Shown here: positions 42,485-49,551 of the stretch, one piece after another
Numbering within the stretch: the stretch's first letter is position 1
Layout: the number at the start of each line of letters is the position of its first letter
From: Myxococcota bacterium
GTDB lineage: Bacteria; Myxococcota_A; Bradymonadia; UBA7976; UBA1532
Direction: 5' to 3'
NCBI GenBank assembly: GCA_963169045.1
Contig: CAUJDF010000044.1
Location: forward strand, 372,001 to 436,000
Length of the DNA: 64,000 nt
Translations under genes and position numbers: made by a program
Notes under the pieces: generated by a model
What the model saw: only the letters and a program-made list of their open reading frames with translations
Told to the model about the DNA's origin: nothing
The model's database searches: none

Positions 42485-43981
42485 TCATTGGGCCCCGCGC
42501 GGGGCGGGGCTGGCCTTCACGGCGCGCATGTCCGCCCAGCGCTTGATGTCCTTGATCTGCTCGGACATCGTCGTGGACAGCGGCACGATGCGGCTCAACG
42601 TCGCGTAGAGATCCGTCGGCGTCAGCGCGCGGCCTTCGTCGAACGCCCGGAAGAGCCCATTGGCGATCACCTGCTCGATCTCGGCCCCGTTGAAGCCCTT
42701 CGTGGCCTTGGCGAGCTGCACCAGGTCGAAGGCGTCCACGTCCTGCCCGCGCCGGCGCAGATGCACGGCGAAGATCTCCGCCCGCTCCGCCTCGACCGGC
42801 AGGTCCACGAAGAAGATTTCGTCGAAGCGGCCCTTGCGCAGCAGCTCCGGCGGCAGGCGGTCGATGGCGTTGGCCGTCGCCGCCACGAACACCTCCTTCG
42901 CCTTCTCCTGCATCCACGTCAGGAAGTTGCTGAAGAGGCGTTGTGCCAGGTTGTTGGCCTCCTCCGCGCCGACCACCGCGGTCTCGATCTCGTCGATCCA
43001 CAGGATGCAGGGGCTGATCTCCTCGGCGGTGTGGATGGCGGCCTCGAGCGTCTCCTCCGGCGTGCCGAGGACGCCCGCGTACACGCGGTTCATGTCCATG
43101 CGCACCATCGGCAGCTGCCAGGCGGCGGCGATCGCCTGCACGCAGATCGACTTGCCGCACCCGCTGATGCCGGTGAGCAGGAGGCCCTTGGGTGCGGCGA
43201 TCCCGAAGCGGGCGGCCTCCGGGGAGAAGAAGCGCTCGCGCTGCTTCAGCCAGTCCTTCAGGTTCGACAGGCCGCCGACGTCCTCGAGCCGGACGCGCGG
43301 CGGGACGTACTCGAGCACCCCCGACTTGCGAATGAGCTGCCGCTTCTCCTCGTGAATCGCCTCGATCGAGACCCGATCGACCGCCTTTCGGCCCAGGAAC
43401 AGCCGCGTAAAGGCCGTGCGCGCCTGGTCCAGGGTCAGACCGAGCGCCGATCGGAAGAGCTCGACCCGGTCTCCGGGCGTCAGGTTGTCCGAGGCGCGCG
43501 GAAAGCTGCTGCGGACCTGCTCGAAGGCGCGCGCGAGCTCCGCCTCATCGGGCAGGGGCGCGTGCTCGACCAGCATCTCCTTGAGCAGATCCGGGGGGAC
43601 GAGCAGACGCGGCTGCACGAGGACGACCGTGCGGTACGTGGACCGGAGCGCCTGATGGACTTCGCGCAGCTTGCGGACGACACGCGGATCGTCCAGGAAC
43701 GGGTGCAGGTCGCAGAAGAGGTAGATCGCCGGCGCGGTGGAGGCGGCGGCGTGGCGCAGCGCCGCCAGCGGCGTCGTCGTGTCGGGCACGGCCACCCCGT
43801 CGAGCGTCAGGCCCGCGGTCGACGACCAGAGGTAGAGCGGCACCGGCTGCGCGAACGTGCGCTTCGCGACGTCGCGGAGGATCGCCTCGACGCGCTCCTC
43901 CTCCCACGACACGACCTGCACGAGCGACACGCGGGCGGCGACGTGCCGGCGCAGGACGTCACCGAACCCCGGCGCGCTCAC
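42485..43981 (-). CDS. AAA+ ATPase of the Ycf46 type
   Basis: 498 aa. The N-terminal half (about 1-215) is a family-specific region without known motifs. The AAA+ module follows (LLLTGISGCGKS Walker A near residue 275, Walker B ILWIDEIE, sensor and arginine-finger region RFDEIFFVDLP). The GCGKS P-loop and N-terminal layout fit Ycf46-like ATPases, known from cyanobacteria and plastids and of poorly defined function. GTG 43981 overlaps the moaDE stop as GTGA. Confidence 0.88.
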   Translation of the reverse strand: MSAPGFGDVLRRHVAARVSLVQVVSWEEERVEAILRDVAKRTFAQPVPLYLWSSTAGLTLDGVAVPDTTTPLAALRHAAASTAPAIYLFCDLHPFLDDPRVVRKLREVHQALRSTYRTVVLVQPRLLVPPDLLKEMLVEHAPLPDEAELARAFEQVRSSFPRASDNLTPGDRVELFRSALGLTLDQARTAFTRLFLGRKAVDRVSIEAIHEEKRQLIRKSGVLEYVPPRVRLEDVGGLSNLKDWLKQRERFFSPEAARFGIAAPKGLLLTGISGCGKSICVQAIAAAWQLPMVRMDMNRVYAGVLGTPEETLEAAIHTAEEISPCILWIDEIETAVVGAEEANNLAQRLFSNFLTWMQEKAKEVFVAATANAIDRLPPELLRKGRFDEIFFVDLPVEAERAEIFAVHLRRRGQDVDAFDLVQLAKATKGFNGAEIEQVIANGLFRAFDEGRALTPTDLYATLSRIVPLSTTMSEQIKDIKRWADMRAVKASPAPRGAQ

Positions 43982-44637
43982 GGCCCGAGCCCAACCCAGA
44001 CCGAGCCGTCGGCGCGGACCTCCTTCTTGAAGATCGGCACGTCCTGCTTCAGACGCTCGATGACGTGACGGCACGCCTCGAAGGCGTCGGCGCGATGCGC
44101 GGCGGCCACGGCGATGATCACCGCCGCCTCCCCGACCGCCAGCACGCCGAGGCGGTGGTGGACGGCGACGCGGGCCGCGGGCCAGCGCGCGATCGTCTCT
44201 TCCCGAATGGATTCGAGGACTTTCAGCGCCATCGACTCGTAGGCCTCGTACTCGAGGCGCACGACGGCGTGCGGGCCGGTGTGGTCGCGGACGGCGCCCG
44301 TGAAGGTGACGAGGCCGCCGCGATCGGGGCCGGCGACGAGCGCCTCGACCGCCCGCGGATCGAGCGGCGCCGTCCAGAGCGCGACCAGCGGCGCGCCGCC
44401 GGCCACCGGCGGAATGAGGGCGAGCACGTCGCCGTCGCCGAGCGGCGCCGCGGCGTCGACGAAGCGCTCGTTCACCGCGAAGCGCACGTGGGGCAGCACG
44501 GCGGCCAGCGCGGGGAAGCGCTCGCCGAGCGCGGCGCGCGCCTCGGCCACGGTCGCGCCGTCGCCGAGGACGAGCGCATCGCGGGAGAGGCCCGCGCGTT
44601 CGCGGGCGGCGCCGAAGAAGAGGACGTCAATGCGCAC
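43978..44637 (-). CDS. MoaD-MoaE fusion (molybdopterin synthase, MoaX-like)
   Basis: 219 aa. Residues 1-81 are a complete MoaD ubiquitin-like domain ending PPVAGG (G80-G81); residues about 85-219 are MoaE, with GLVTFTGAVRDHT, LEYEAYESMA and VHHRLGVLAVGEAAV. Together they convert precursor Z to molybdopterin. In the standard system the MoaD C-terminal glycine must be free to carry sulfur; here it is internal, as in Mycobacterium MoaX, which is cleaved after Gly-Gly. GTG 44637 has GGAGG 4 nt upstream. Confidence 0.92.
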   Translation of the reverse strand: MRIDVLFFGAARERAGLSRDALVLGDGATVAEARAALGERFPALAAVLPHVRFAVNERFVDAAAPLGDGDVLALIPPVAGGAPLVALWTAPLDPRAVEALVAGPDRGGLVTFTGAVRDHTGPHAVVRLEYEAYESMALKVLESIREETIARWPAARVAVHHRLGVLAVGEAAVIIAVAAAHRADAFEACRHVIERLKQDVPIFKKEVRADGSVWVGLGP

Positions 44638-44654
44638 GCAACCTCCGTCGGGGC

Positions 44655-44683
44655 AGCGTATCCTCCGTGCCGCCGCCGGCCAA
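44655..44683 (-). promoter_or_regulatory. Promoter of the moaDE-ATPase operon
   Basis: Minus strand TTGGCC (44683-44678), 17 nt, TACGCT (44660-44655), then about 17 nt to GTG 44637 including GGAGG. The divergent lipoprotein gene may use TTGTCT (44702-44707) with TACACC (44726-44731, 18-nt spacing) on the plus strand. Confidence 0.5.
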
Positions 44684-44760
44684 GCGCGCCCGACGTCGCG
44701 ATTGTCTCGGACCCGGCATCGGACGTACACCGATAGACTCCTCACTTCAGGCGGGCGGAC

Positions 44761-47553
44761 ATGCGAATCGTTGCGGCGGCGATCCTGTGGCTCATCGTGG
44801 TGGGCTGCGCACCCGACGAGGCCACCGATCCGCCGGGCAGCACGCGCCTGCGCCCGGTCGCCGCCGACGCGGCGCCGGACGGGGCCGTGGCGCCACCCGC
44901 CGACGCGGCGAGCGCCGCCGACGCCGCCGCCGACGCCGCCGCGCCGCCCGAAGCCGGCCCCCCCGCGGTGGTGCGTCCGCGAGACTGCGGCGACGCGATC
45001 GTCGGCGTCGTCGGCCCCGCGGGCGGGACCCTGCGCGTCGAGGGCGGCGCCCTCGTCGACGCCGCGATCACCGTGGCGCCCGACACCTTCGATCAGGACG
45101 TCACGCTGCGCATGGCCTGCGCCGAGCCCATCGTGGGCGCGGACCACGTCGCGCTCGGCGCGGCCCTCGCCGTCCTGCCCGACGGCGGCGCCGTCGTCCC
45201 GCGGCGGCCCCTGCGCGTCACCCTCGTGTTCAGCGGCCCCGACCGCCCGGCCGCCGTCGGGGCCAACGAGCTGCGTCTGTTCTGGAAGCCGGCGCGCCAC
45301 GACGGCGTCAGCGAGCCGCCGGTGATCGACGCCGCCATCGACCTGCGCGCGGGCACCTTCGCGTTCACGACGCCCGACCTCGGCACGTTCCAGCTGGGGC
45401 ACCGCCCGGACGCCGGGCAGCCGGTGGACCGGCGGTTCACGTTCCGCGCCATCGGCGGCGTCAGCATGGGGGCGGGCGCGGCGGCCTACCTCGGCGCCCG
45501 GTATTCAGATCACTTCGACTTCGTGCTCCCGCTCGGCGGCGCCAGCGACTGGACGTACTTACTGAACTACATCCGCAATCGGCTCCTCGGCGGCTTCTGC
45601 GCGGGCGAGGCCGTGGGCACGTGGTGCGGCCTGCCGGCCCCCGACCAGCAGTTCGAGCTCGAGGCCGACGCGCGACACTGGCCGTTCTCCGACAGCGGCG
45701 GGCGCTTCGATCGCAGCGAGTACGTGAAGCTGCTGCAGGACCTCTCGTACGCCTACGGCAATCCCCTGCTCTACAACACCGAGAGCGCCTACCGGCCGCC
45801 CGGCTACCCCGTGTCGGAGCTGCGCCGCCCGCCGGCGGAGCGCTGCCTGGCCGAGTGCCGCGGCGACGCCTGCCCGCCCGAGGCCGGGGCCGCGACGTTC
45901 CGGATCTCCGAGGGGTTCTTCGACGGCGAGTACAACCCGCAGGGCCGCCTGCCGGTGATCGCGTTCTGCGACGGCGAGGACGGCGATCCCCCCGGCGTCT
46001 TCGACGAGAGCGTCCCCCACGGCGAGCCGGTCGAGGTGCTGTACGCCGTCGACGTGAACGACAACGGGCGCCGCGACCGGGACGAGCCCATCCTCCGGCA
46101 GACCTCGGAGCCCTTCGACGACGTGGGCTGCGACGGCGTGGCGAGCCGCGACGAGCCCGGCTACGACCCGGTGGCGCGCCCGGACCCGGCCAACGACGAC
46201 TACGACTGGTATCGCAACCCCCTCGGCACGGAGGGCAGCTGGCGCCACGACGACTGCGGCGCGGCGGGCGCCGAGCCGTTCCGCGACGTGGGCCTCGACG
46301 GCGTCCCCGGGACGCCCCAGGCCAGCGACGGCGGCTATGACTTCGGCGAGGGCAACGGGCGCTTCGATCTCAACCCGAACTACGCGCGCTTCCTCGAGCG
46401 CAACCCGGGCACGCTCCTGCGCGCCCTGCCCGCCGCCGGGCGCGAGCGGCTGCGGTTCTGGGTCGACGCCGGCATCCGCGACGTCTTCAACTTCGCGACC
46501 GCCGGCGACCACTTCGTCGGCCAGCTGCAGGCCGCCGGCGAGAACGTCCGCATCTACGACGACCACGCGAAGCTGCTGCCGCCGGACCGCGACCGCGCGG
46601 TGTACTTCCCCGGCGCCGCGCAGCCCGATCCGTTCGGCGAGCGGGGCCGTCACGTCTTCGTGCGCTACGGCGATCCCGAGGCCGACGCCCTCGCGCTCGC
46701 CGAGGGCGACGGCGCCCACGTCGGCACCCCGACCCAGGCGCTCAACCGCTTCATGACCATGCTGGACTGGGTGCTCCGACGCTGGCCCGGCGGCGACTAC
46801 TCGCCCGTGCCCCCGCCGTTCGCGCGCGAGGACCGCGTGGTGTTCTTCGACTCGCCGCGCTTCGGCAAGCGCTATCGCTACGGCATCAGCCTGCCACCCG
46901 GTTACGGACGCCCCGAGAACGCGGCGCGGCGCTACCCGCTGCTGCTCATCCTGCACGGCTATGGCCAGGGTCCCGAGGACCTGCCCATCACCGGCACGCT
47001 GCTCGCCGGGCAGATGGCCGCCGGCGCCTGGCAGAAGGCGATCATCGCGTTTCCAGAAGGATTCTGCGGAGATGCGCGCGTCACACAGTGCAACGACGGC
47101 ATCGACAACGACGGCGACGGCACTGTGGACGCCGGCCGCGACGCGGCGATGCGCACCGCCTGCGACCGGGACGCACAGTGTCGCGGCGACTACCGCTGCC
47201 GGGACGGCTGGTGCTGCCCCGAGGACCTGGCCGAGTGCGGTCCGCCCGACCCGGAGTGCGGCCGGTCGCCCGGCGCGCGCAGCGAGGACGGCGGCTGGTT
47301 GCCGCTGTGCGCCGACGGCGTCGACAACGATCGCGACGGGCAGACCGATCTCGCCGACGAGGGCTGCCTCGACGACGCTGCGCAGGATACGGAGGAGGAC
47401 TGCAAACAGGGCAGCTTCTTCACCACCCACCCTGCCCGCAAGGACGGCGAAGCCGGCGGCCCCGACTTCGAGGGCGCCCTGCTCGACATGCTCGACCACA
47501 TCGACGCGAACTTCCGGACGAAGCGGCCGGAGGTCCTCAGCGTGCCGCGTTGA
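44761..47553 (+). CDS. Lipoprotein esterase with circularly permuted alpha/beta-hydrolase order
   Basis: 930 aa. Signal with lipobox VVGC (Cys16), Asp/Ala linker, then a ZU5-like beta domain (about 78-220: VGPAGGTLRVEGGALVDAAITV). The nucleophile elbow GGVSMGAG (Ser235) comes next, then D574 (GIRDVF) and H602 (YDDH) in the order seen after the nucleophile in the putative esterase family. Only then come the segments that normally precede the nucleophile: RYRYGISLPPGYG, LILHGYGQG (H732), AIIAFPEG, and at the very C-terminus HIDANFRTKRPE. Calcium-type inserts (CNDGIDNDGDG; DNDRDGQTD) lie between. Overlaps the convergent gene by 17 bp. Confidence 0.85.
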   Translation: MRIVAAAILWLIVVGCAPDEATDPPGSTRLRPVAADAAPDGAVAPPADAASAADAAADAAAPPEAGPPAVVRPRDCGDAIVGVVGPAGGTLRVEGGALVDAAITVAPDTFDQDVTLRMACAEPIVGADHVALGAALAVLPDGGAVVPRRPLRVTLVFSGPDRPAAVGANELRLFWKPARHDGVSEPPVIDAAIDLRAGTFAFTTPDLGTFQLGHRPDAGQPVDRRFTFRAIGGVSMGAGAAAYLGARYSDHFDFVLPLGGASDWTYLLNYIRNRLLGGFCAGEAVGTWCGLPAPDQQFELEADARHWPFSDSGGRFDRSEYVKLLQDLSYAYGNPLLYNTESAYRPPGYPVSELRRPPAERCLAECRGDACPPEAGAATFRISEGFFDGEYNPQGRLPVIAFCDGEDGDPPGVFDESVPHGEPVEVLYAVDVNDNGRRDRDEPILRQTSEPFDDVGCDGVASRDEPGYDPVARPDPANDDYDWYRNPLGTEGSWRHDDCGAAGAEPFRDVGLDGVPGTPQASDGGYDFGEGNGRFDLNPNYARFLERNPGTLLRALPAAGRERLRFWVDAGIRDVFNFATAGDHFVGQLQAAGENVRIYDDHAKLLPPDRDRAVYFPGAAQPDPFGERGRHVFVRYGDPEADALALAEGDGAHVGTPTQALNRFMTMLDWVLRRWPGGDYSPVPPPFAREDRVVFFDSPRFGKRYRYGISLPPGYGRPENAARRYPLLLILHGYGQGPEDLPITGTLLAGQMAAGAWQKAIIAFPEGFCGDARVTQCNDGIDNDGDGTVDAGRDAAMRTACDRDAQCRGDYRCRDGWCCPEDLAECGPPDPECGRSPGARSEDGGWLPLCADGVDNDRDGQTDLADEGCLDDAAQDTEEDCKQGSFFTTHPARKDGEAGGPDFEGALLDMLDHIDANFRTKRPEVLSVPR

Positions 47554-47905
47554 CGCGCGCCCAGGCGACGACGACGCGCGCGTCGTCCATCGGGGTCAGG
47601 CGCGCTGCGGGCAGCGGCGCCGCGAAGCCACCCTCCGGCGCCGGCCGCGCGCAGAGGCGCGCCGCCGCCTCGCGGACTTCGACGGGGATCGAGTCGTCGT
47701 CGGCGAGCGCGTTCAGGTGGTGCATGAACGAGGTGCCATAGCCGAGTCTCGGCGAGGCCACGAGCCAGCCCTTGAGCGCCATGCCCGCCGCGCGCCGCGA
47801 GCACACGCGGCCGCGCCCGGCGTTGCCGCCCCTCCACGCCTCTTCGGCGCTTGCCAGCTCCGGGTCGACCTGCGCGAACCAGGCCTCCGGGGTCTCGTCG
47901 GTCAT
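47537..47905 (-). CDS. Small unknown protein, last gene of the lepA-pyr operon
   Basis: 122-aa, soluble, mainly helical, with a conserved-looking core GNAGRGRVCSRRAAGMALKGWL. The helix pairs and RRAAG core recall HEPN-type helical bundles, but I cannot establish this. ATG 47905 overlaps the trmL stop as ATGA. Its last 17 bp overlap the 3' end of the convergent esterase gene. Confidence 0.65.
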   Translation of the reverse strand: MTDETPEAWFAQVDPELASAEEAWRGGNAGRGRVCSRRAAGMALKGWLVASPRLGYGTSFMHHLNALADDDSIPVEVREAAARLCARPAPEGGFAAPLPAARLTPMDDARVVVAWARVNAAR

Positions 47906-48351
47906 GCGGTGGCTCCGAGCTGGCGGCGCGCCTCGAAGAGCGCCACCGCCGCGCACTGCGCCAGATTGAGGCTGCGCACGTGCGGGTTGACGATGGGGAT
48001 GCGCAGCCACGACGCGCGGTGCGCCTCGAGGATCGCCGGCGGCAGGCCCGTCGTCTCGCTGCCGAAGACGAGCAGGTCGTCGGGCGCGTACTCCACGCTC
48101 GTGTAGGACGTCGTCGCCTTCGTCGTGAAGAGCCAGGGGCGCCCGCCGAGCGCCAGGACGGCGTCCCAGTCGGGCACGACGCGCAGCTTGATCCACGGCC
48201 AGTAGTCGAGACCGGCGCGCTTGAGCATGCGGTCCTCGATCTTGAAGCCCAGCGGCTCCACCAGCACCAGCTCCGTGTCGGTGCCCGCGCAGAGCCGGCC
48301 GATGCTGCCGGTATTCTGCGGGATGAGCGGCGAGACGAGGACGACGCGCAC
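47902..48351 (-). CDS. trmL: tRNA (cytidine/uridine-34-2'-O)-methyltransferase
   Basis: 149-aa minimal SPOUT methyltransferase, full length for TrmL. Conserved pieces: SPLIPQNTGSIGRLCAG near the N-terminus, FGSETTGLP, and the knot-forming IPIVNPHVRSLNLAQCAAVALFEA. Methylates the wobble ribose of tRNA-Leu isoacceptors in E. coli. Start is GTG 48351, 6 bp after the upstream lipoprotein stop. Confidence 0.93.
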   Translation of the reverse strand: MRVVLVSPLIPQNTGSIGRLCAGTDTELVLVEPLGFKIEDRMLKRAGLDYWPWIKLRVVPDWDAVLALGGRPWLFTTKATTSYTSVEYAPDDLLVFGSETTGLPPAILEAHRASWLRIPIVNPHVRSLNLAQCAAVALFEARRQLGATA

Positions 48352-48357
48352 GGCGGG

Positions 48358-49551
48358 TCAGCGCACGGGGACGACGCGCGTGGCCGGCCGGGCGGGCACG
48401 AGCAGCACCCAGCCGCCTGCCGCGTCGCGGCCGATGGCGGTGTTGAGGACCGGCTCGAGGGCGGCGATCGGACGCGACGTCCACCGGCCGTCGGCGGCGG
48501 GCCAGAACAGCGACACGCGCTTGTCGCCCTGGGCGGCGATCTCCCGCCGGCCGTCGCCGTCGACGTCGACCGGCGTGAGGGCGAAGAACGTGAACTCGTC
48601 GGCCGACTCGCCGAGCGTCTCGACGGCGAACTTGCCGCCGGCCCAGCGGGCGCGCTTGAGCCGGGCCTTCGCCTCCTTGCCGTAGTTGGCCACCCAGCCG
48701 TCGGCGAAGTAGAGGCTCGGCCGCTCCTCGCCGCCGACCGCCGCGACGACGAGCGAGCGCACGCCGTTGTCCGTGGCCACCTGCACGGCGCCCTGGCCGA
48801 CGTCGACGCGCAGGTCGCCGGGCTTGCCCTTGTCGTCGCCGTAGACGCGCCCGACCACCTCGTCGGCCTTGCCGTCGGCGTTCAGGTCGCCGAAGGCGCG
48901 GCTCGTGGCCATCCGGATCTCCGGCCCCTCGACCACCTCGCCGTTTCCCTTGAGGTGACGCGTCTTTACGAAGTACTTGCTCGCGTAGTGGGCGAAGGCG
49001 AGCTCCGCCGCGCCGTCGCGATCCACGTCGGCCACCGACAGGTGGGCGCACTCGTTGCGCTCGCCCTGCTGACGCCACAGCTCGGTCGCCTGGCCCGTGG
49101 CGGGGTCGATGGCCTCGAGCACGAGCGGGGCCTCGAGGTGGCCGCGGCCGACGCCCCAGGCCACGAACAGGCGCGGCCCCTGACCGATGTCGCCGAACGC
49201 GACGTCCTGGGCCACGCCGGGGCCCTGACGGCGCCACAGGGGCTCGGCCTTGCCGTCGCGGAGCGGCGGCGCCAACCAGACCGCGTCACCGTCGGTGCCG
49301 AGGACGTGATCGCCGCCGGCGGCCGCGATCCTCAGGGTGAAGACGCGGTCGCTCGCCGGGAGGCCACCGGCGGGCGCCGCCGCCATCGACGCGGGCGTCA
49401 CCGTCGTCGCCTTCGGGGCCGGCGCGGCCTGCGTCGCGGGCGCGGCCTGCGTCGCGGGCGCGGCCTGCGTCGCGGGCGCGGCCTTCTCGGACGGCGGGTC
49501 GACCTTGCACCCGACCGTGACGAGCGCCACAGCCACCGCCAGCCTCTTCAT
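48358..49551 (-). CDS. FG-GAP/VCBS-like lipoprotein
   Basis: 397 aa. Short signal ([15 protein letters not shown], Cys15), ATQAAP repeat linker, then a beta-propeller-like domain with repeated calcium loops: [26 protein letters not shown] and [13 protein letters not shown]. Such proteins are exported and often bind partners or surfaces. ATG 49551 overlaps the carA stop as ATGA, so it is coupled to pyrimidine genes without an obvious functional reason. Confidence 0.82.
49422..49475 (-). repeat. Three tandem 18-bp units in a lipoprotein linker
   Basis: Identical 18-bp copies at 49422-49439, 49440-49457 and 49458-49475, coding ATQAAP-type hexapeptides after the lipid-anchor Cys. Confidence 0.95.

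Follow-up and report, generated by a model that had tools for sequence, protein, structure and literature searches.

A family of predicted lipoprotein esterases with a circularly permuted alpha/beta-hydrolase core in Myxococcota

Results

The gene and its surroundings

The window, that is, the whole stretch of 64,000 nucleotides of Myxococcota DNA analysed here, carries a reading frame on the forward strand (44761-47553) that reads through uninterrupted for 930 aa, begins with MRIVAAAILWLIVVGC and has 94% GC at its third codon positions. Behind a lipobox ending at C16, the protein presents G233-V-S235-M-G237, D574, LPPGY (711-715), HGYG (732-735), FPEG (764-767) and a YRT-like FRT (918-920) before it stops. 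Translation and motif positions confirmed the frame, the coordinates and the motif order of the original prediction. Seven relatives from the same family of genomes share 54-63% identity with the window protein over nearly the full length; frame, motif order and this identity far exceed what chance would produce. The GxSMG motif is present as a single copy, and no second one was found in the protein or downstream of it in three frames up to position 49000. A lipobox-like site occurs in 61 of the 79 relatives examined. The features are collected in Table 1.

The divergent neighbour on the reverse strand (43978-44700) looks by eye like a fusion of MoaD and MoaE, the small and large subunits of molybdopterin synthase, in one ORF, and a TrmL/SpoU-like tRNA methyltransferase lies downstream (47902-48351, reverse strand). 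A TrmL/SpoU-type ORF also adjoins the esterase gene in the five closest relatives (L042-L046), a synteny that is local only. Within a Labilithrix-like group, a same-strand ORF with a lipoprotein-like start is kept upstream of the esterase in 11 loci (L080:1273-5166 and relatives). No neighbours conserved across the phylum were found, in a neighbourhood listing consisting mostly of shadow ORFs in GC-rich DNA, and the surroundings therefore give no hint of the substrate.

Table 1. Features of the permuted hydrolase gene in the window
Feature	Residues	Coordinates	Strand	Basis
Whole gene, permuted alpha/beta-hydrolase lipoprotein	930 aa	44761..47553	+	ORF translation, full-length relatives
Lipoprotein signal peptide MRIVAAAILWLIVVGC, lipobox Cys16		44761..44808	+	Sequence
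ZU5-like beta domain	77-218	44989..45414	+	Model against ankyrin-B ZU5 (4d8o): Z 12.6, 127 aligned, rmsd 3.0
Strand beta5, nucleophile elbow GVSMG (S235), next helix and strand	221-260	45421..45540	+	S235 80/81; model; 7xrt profile match
Large Asp/Gly-rich insertion, probable cap	about 280-560	45598..46440	+	Conservation, Ser-Asp spacing
Strand carrying D569 (invariant) and D574 (candidate catalytic Asp)	565-574	46453..46482	+	81/81 each; model
GDGAHVG with catalytic His candidate H653	649-655	46705..46725	+	H653 81/81
Linker from natural C-terminal helix to natural N-terminal strand	about 673-689	46777..46827	+	Model secondary structure
Natural N-terminal half: strands 1-3, LPPGY, HGYG (oxyanion region, H732)	690-735	46828..46965	+	PF00756 matches; conservation; 7xrt
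Strand 4, IIAFPEG	761-767	47041..47061	+	Model; 7xrt profile match
Loop between conserved Cys769 and Cys881, MopE-like/acid_disulf repeats (CNDGIDNDGDG, CADGVDNDRDG)		47065..47403	+	NCBIfam NF033662
C-terminal helix and FRTKRPEVLSVPR end, permutation cut	903-930	47467..47550	+	7xrt block ends

Conservation of the catalytic residues

In an alignment of 81 sequences, S235 is conserved in 80, with one gap, H732 likewise in 80, and D574 and D569 are both invariant. The histidine is a different matter. H602 had been named as the catalytic residue together with S235 and D574, but this position is Phe in 64 of the 81 sequences and His in only 10 (Trp in 5, Tyr in 2), whereas H653 within GDGxHVG is His in every one. 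H602 was accordingly rejected; the serine and the aspartate stand. At the sequence level, the Ser-Asp-His triad and the HGxG element of PF00756 are thus represented by S235, D574, H653 and H732, each kept in 80 or 81 sequences.

Distribution of the rotated form

With one genome scanned per species, 101 relatives were obtained, and the best 80 of them were kept. The named taxa among these 80 are all Myxococcota (Polyangiaceae, Kofleriaceae, Sandaracinaceae, Labilithrix, Myxococcaceae and Archangiaceae), and the rest carry the generic labels Deltaproteobacteria, Proteobacteria or bacterium. Two loci (L049 and L117) are cut by contig ends; the 78 members spanning both halves, among the best 80 of 101, all have the permuted layout, and wherever YRT can be recognized the protein ends about 12-20 residues past it. 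Of 237 Myxococcota genomes searched with the profile, 63 contain the family, usually in one copy and almost always at full length; one of the 63 consists of one contig of 10.3 Mb (G200). The conservation of the permutation, which the original prediction had left to a homologue search, is therefore borne out, and proteins with the rotated order make up a genuine family across Myxococcota. In a plasmid collection, the sole match was a short one to a Rubrobacter native-order hydrolase.

Evidence for a circular permutation

In the existing order of the window protein, PF00756 covers only residues 698-764, with 22.4 bits against a cut-off of 22, and no esterase domain in native order was found in this protein. 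The same model matched all 32 members scanned (best E 1.8e-12). Once the large inserts are removed, the existing order yields two separate PF00756 stretches in reverse order; placing 695-930 before 220-694 merges them into a single stretch over profile positions 1-148 (31.0 bits), as had been anticipated from swapping the halves. Two relatives reordered in this way (L013 and L023) scored 43.8 and 44.9 bits. Total bits are barely or not raised by the reordering because the same residues match, and it is the collinearity that changes.

A family profile built from 78 relatives gave 48 matches to E 10 in the PDB, the best of which are native-order ferulic acid esterases (7xrt, E 1.1e-17). On 7xrt, profile positions 472-611 fall on chain residues 27-142 and positions 6-49 on residues 140-183. 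The boundaries of the two blocks coincide to within three residues, the hallmark of a circular permutation, and the places where they end (142) and start (140) agree with the proposal that the protein stops where the nucleophile strand should begin. As a control, a native-order paralogue from the same genome (L037) matches the family profile reversed, with positions 489-556 followed by 11-53, and two further native-order hydrolases (L040 and L142, the latter from Rubrobacter) also match it in the opposite order.

The model of the window protein is of moderate quality (pLDDT 70.9, pTM 0.73); that of a compact relative, L115, computed with 78 sequences, is a single domain with pLDDT 91.3 and pTM 0.91. 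For both models the poly(3-hydroxybutyrate) (PHB) depolymerase of Penicillium funiculosum (2d80) ranks first in VIA-align, with Z 13.6 for the window protein and 16.0 for L115, each time in one collinear alignment that runs across both halves; for L115 it comprises 234 residues (model 37-701, chain 30-338). Native-order CE1 enzymes align to L115 only half by half, model residues 545-705 with the N-terminal halves of 8bf3, 6rzn and 7xrt and residues 35-543 with the C-terminal halves of 1gkl and 3ls2. Over the aligned parts, 13% of residues are identical in 2d80, whereas the figure for the matching half of 7xrt is 32%. The permuted cpHaloTag7 (8b6p) was also among the structural matches. In the L115 model the two halves thus form one fold, the whole catalytic core of which aligns with 2d80. 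Swapped blocks, a single junction, one predicted fold and conservation in evolution were all found, as expected of a natural circular permutation, and the central claim of the original prediction is supported by motif order, cut point, conservation and the predicted single fold.

Accessory regions

The ZU5-like domain suspected in front of the enzyme adopts the ZU5 fold in the model, with ankyrin-B ZU5 as a match (Table 1); by sequence, Pfam ZU5 gave no match in the window protein. Only some members have this domain, and in compact members lacking it the enzyme begins 23-60 residues past the lipobox.

The Ser-to-Asp spacing amounts to 324-416 aa in the relatives measured, and the insertion in between is roughly 300 residues long. 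It contains an EF-hand-like loop, D431xN433xN435GxRD439xxE442, in which D431, N433, N435, G436, D439 and E442 are 90-100% conserved over the 81 sequences, and a motif EP(Y/F)xDxGxDG that occurs twice. D431, G436, R438, E450, D454, D458, E505, D509, D513 and D527 are present in 81 of 81. No solved relative of the insertion was found by sequence, among the PDB matches of the family profile or in the PF00756 scan. In a survey of alpha/beta-hydrolases, caps are commonly placed after strand 6 (PMC11878206). The insertion falls at this usual site, and a calcium-stabilized cap, as judged from these sequence features, is therefore likely.

C769 and C881, each conserved in 80 of the 81 sequences, close the MopE-like loop, which is 5-122 aa long in relatives. 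NF033662 matches 6 of 32 members (best E 1.1e-21); its match to the window protein (E 7.5e-9) has 35.2 bits, below the cut-off of 41. Among the relatives, only the closer kin of the window protein carry the MopE-like repeats. Repeats of the form CxDGxDNDxDG, again of MopE/acid_disulf type, are also found in several large ORFs of the same genome (G000:C69, C94 and C14; L002-L005) and in many relatives.

Discussion

We consider it very probable that the product of the gene is a serine esterase, exported as a lipoprotein, that belongs to the PF00756 (CE1/esterase D) superfamily and is naturally circularly permuted. Following the lipid anchor, and in many members the ZU5-like domain, the chain would open at strand beta5 with S235, cross the Asp-rich insertion to D574, H653 and a short linker, and finish with the original N-terminal half, which would supply the HGYG loop on the oxyanion side. 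S235 would attack the ester with H653 acting as the base, supported by D574, and the oxyanion hole would be formed by backbone groups near M236 and by the HGYG loop. By analogy, the reaction should be a Ser-His-Asp ester hydrolysis or, on the model of the mycolyltransferases that also belong to PF00756, an acyl transfer. The lipid anchor of the predicted lipoprotein would place the enzyme on the outer membrane, and the substrate might most plausibly be an ester, either of a polymer from the environment or of a small molecule, on the cell surface or close to it. Circular permutations usually arise when a gene is duplicated in tandem and then trimmed, and this route may have been taken here as well; no tandem-duplicated intermediate was found.

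The permutation could instead have been inherited if the family diverged from within the type-2 extracellular polyhydroxyalkanoate (PHA) depolymerases, a reading that we regard as rather unlikely. One account of these enzymes, in which P. funiculosum is listed, places the oxyanion hole C-terminal to the triad (PMC2666664). Judged by motif order, the oxyanion region of our family is C-terminal to the triad too, nucleophile, Asp, His and oxyanion region follow each other in the identical order, and 2d80 is the top structural match. The profile test for type-2 membership was nevertheless negative: NF050059, the type-2 model of NCBIfam (cut-off 280 bits), matches none of 32 members at E 0.1, as against 25 of 32 for the model of feruloyl esterases (xylanase/feruloyl esterase) and 19 of 32 for the type-1 model. 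In addition, among the 48 PDB matches of the family profile to E 10, native-order ferulic acid esterases reach E 1e-17 and 2d80 does not occur, and identity is lower to 2d80 than to the matching half of 7xrt. The top Z of 2d80 may just reflect the common chain order, since a sequential aligner can then cross both halves. Since NF050059 matches no member, the feruloyl esterase model most of them and PF00756 all 32, the best reading of these profile matches is a permutation that arose independently within the CE1 lineage, apart from type 2.

Rotation of the alpha/beta-hydrolase fold as such is not new. Hisano 2006, the paper on 2d80, reportedly described that fold as circularly permuted. The swapped-block matches of NF050059 to native-order Myxococcota enzymes, exemplified by G222:C25, where profile positions 208-304 precede 2-126, independently indicate that the type-2 enzymes are themselves permuted. 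Such matches were seen in three native-order, PHA-depolymerase-like sequences (G262:C117, G222:C25 and G200:C1:9685497-9686087). The original prediction knew of no described permutant with this layout. This can be upheld at most within the PF00756/CE1 lineage, for which we found no description of a permuted esterase in the open-access literature, but not for the order itself, already known in type-2 PHA depolymerases. The passages of a 2024 survey of alpha/beta-hydrolases that mention permutation do so only for the peripheral strands 1 and 2 (PMC11878206).

Large Asp-rich insertions, a ZU5-like domain and MopE-like repeats would also fit a catalytically dead, non-enzymatic descendant serving in surface binding or adhesion. 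We find this very improbable, given that the triad residues and the HGxG loop hardly vary among 81 divergent sequences, which is the pattern expected of a working active site. An artefact, be it a frameshift, a fusion by misassembly or the joining of neighbouring genes, can be dismissed with near certainty, since a single frame with the identical cut recurs in all 78 spanning loci and in 63 genomes, one of them a 10.3-Mb contig, and no nucleophile motif follows downstream.

It is uncommon for a whole enzyme core to be circularly permuted in nature, and the alpha/beta-hydrolases make up one of the largest enzyme folds. If the esterases do represent a second lineage cut before the nucleophile strand, the idea of this loop as a hot spot of permutation becomes testable, as does the question of whether rotation eases the insertion of a big cap or substrate cleft. 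Because profile searches in native order catch only fragments, a widespread enzyme family of Myxococcota is likely to be poorly annotated or entered as a partial domain.

Compared with known systems, the family stands closest in sequence motifs to the ferulic acid and acetyl xylan esterases and to esterase D/S-formylglutathione hydrolase of PF00756/CE1 (7xrt, 1jjf, 3i6y). These share LPPGY, HGxG, FPDG, YRT and GxSMGG, and each half aligns with its counterpart; the family differs in its rotated chain, the Ser-Asp spacing of 324-416, the lipid anchor and, in some members, the additional ZU5-like domain and MopE-like repeats. The type-2 depolymerases of short-chain-length PHA (scl-PHA), including 2d80, have the same rotated order with the cut before the nucleophile strand, and the structural alignment with 2d80 extends across the entire core (Z 16.0). 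However, identity over this aligned core is 13%, 2d80 has only 318 residues and no insertion of comparable size, and the 32 members have no match to NF050059. The engineered permutants of CalB, RhEst1 and HaloTag (cpHaloTag) demonstrate that the fold tolerates rotation, but they are laboratory-made, and cpHaloTag7 is cut at a site different from that of the family described here.
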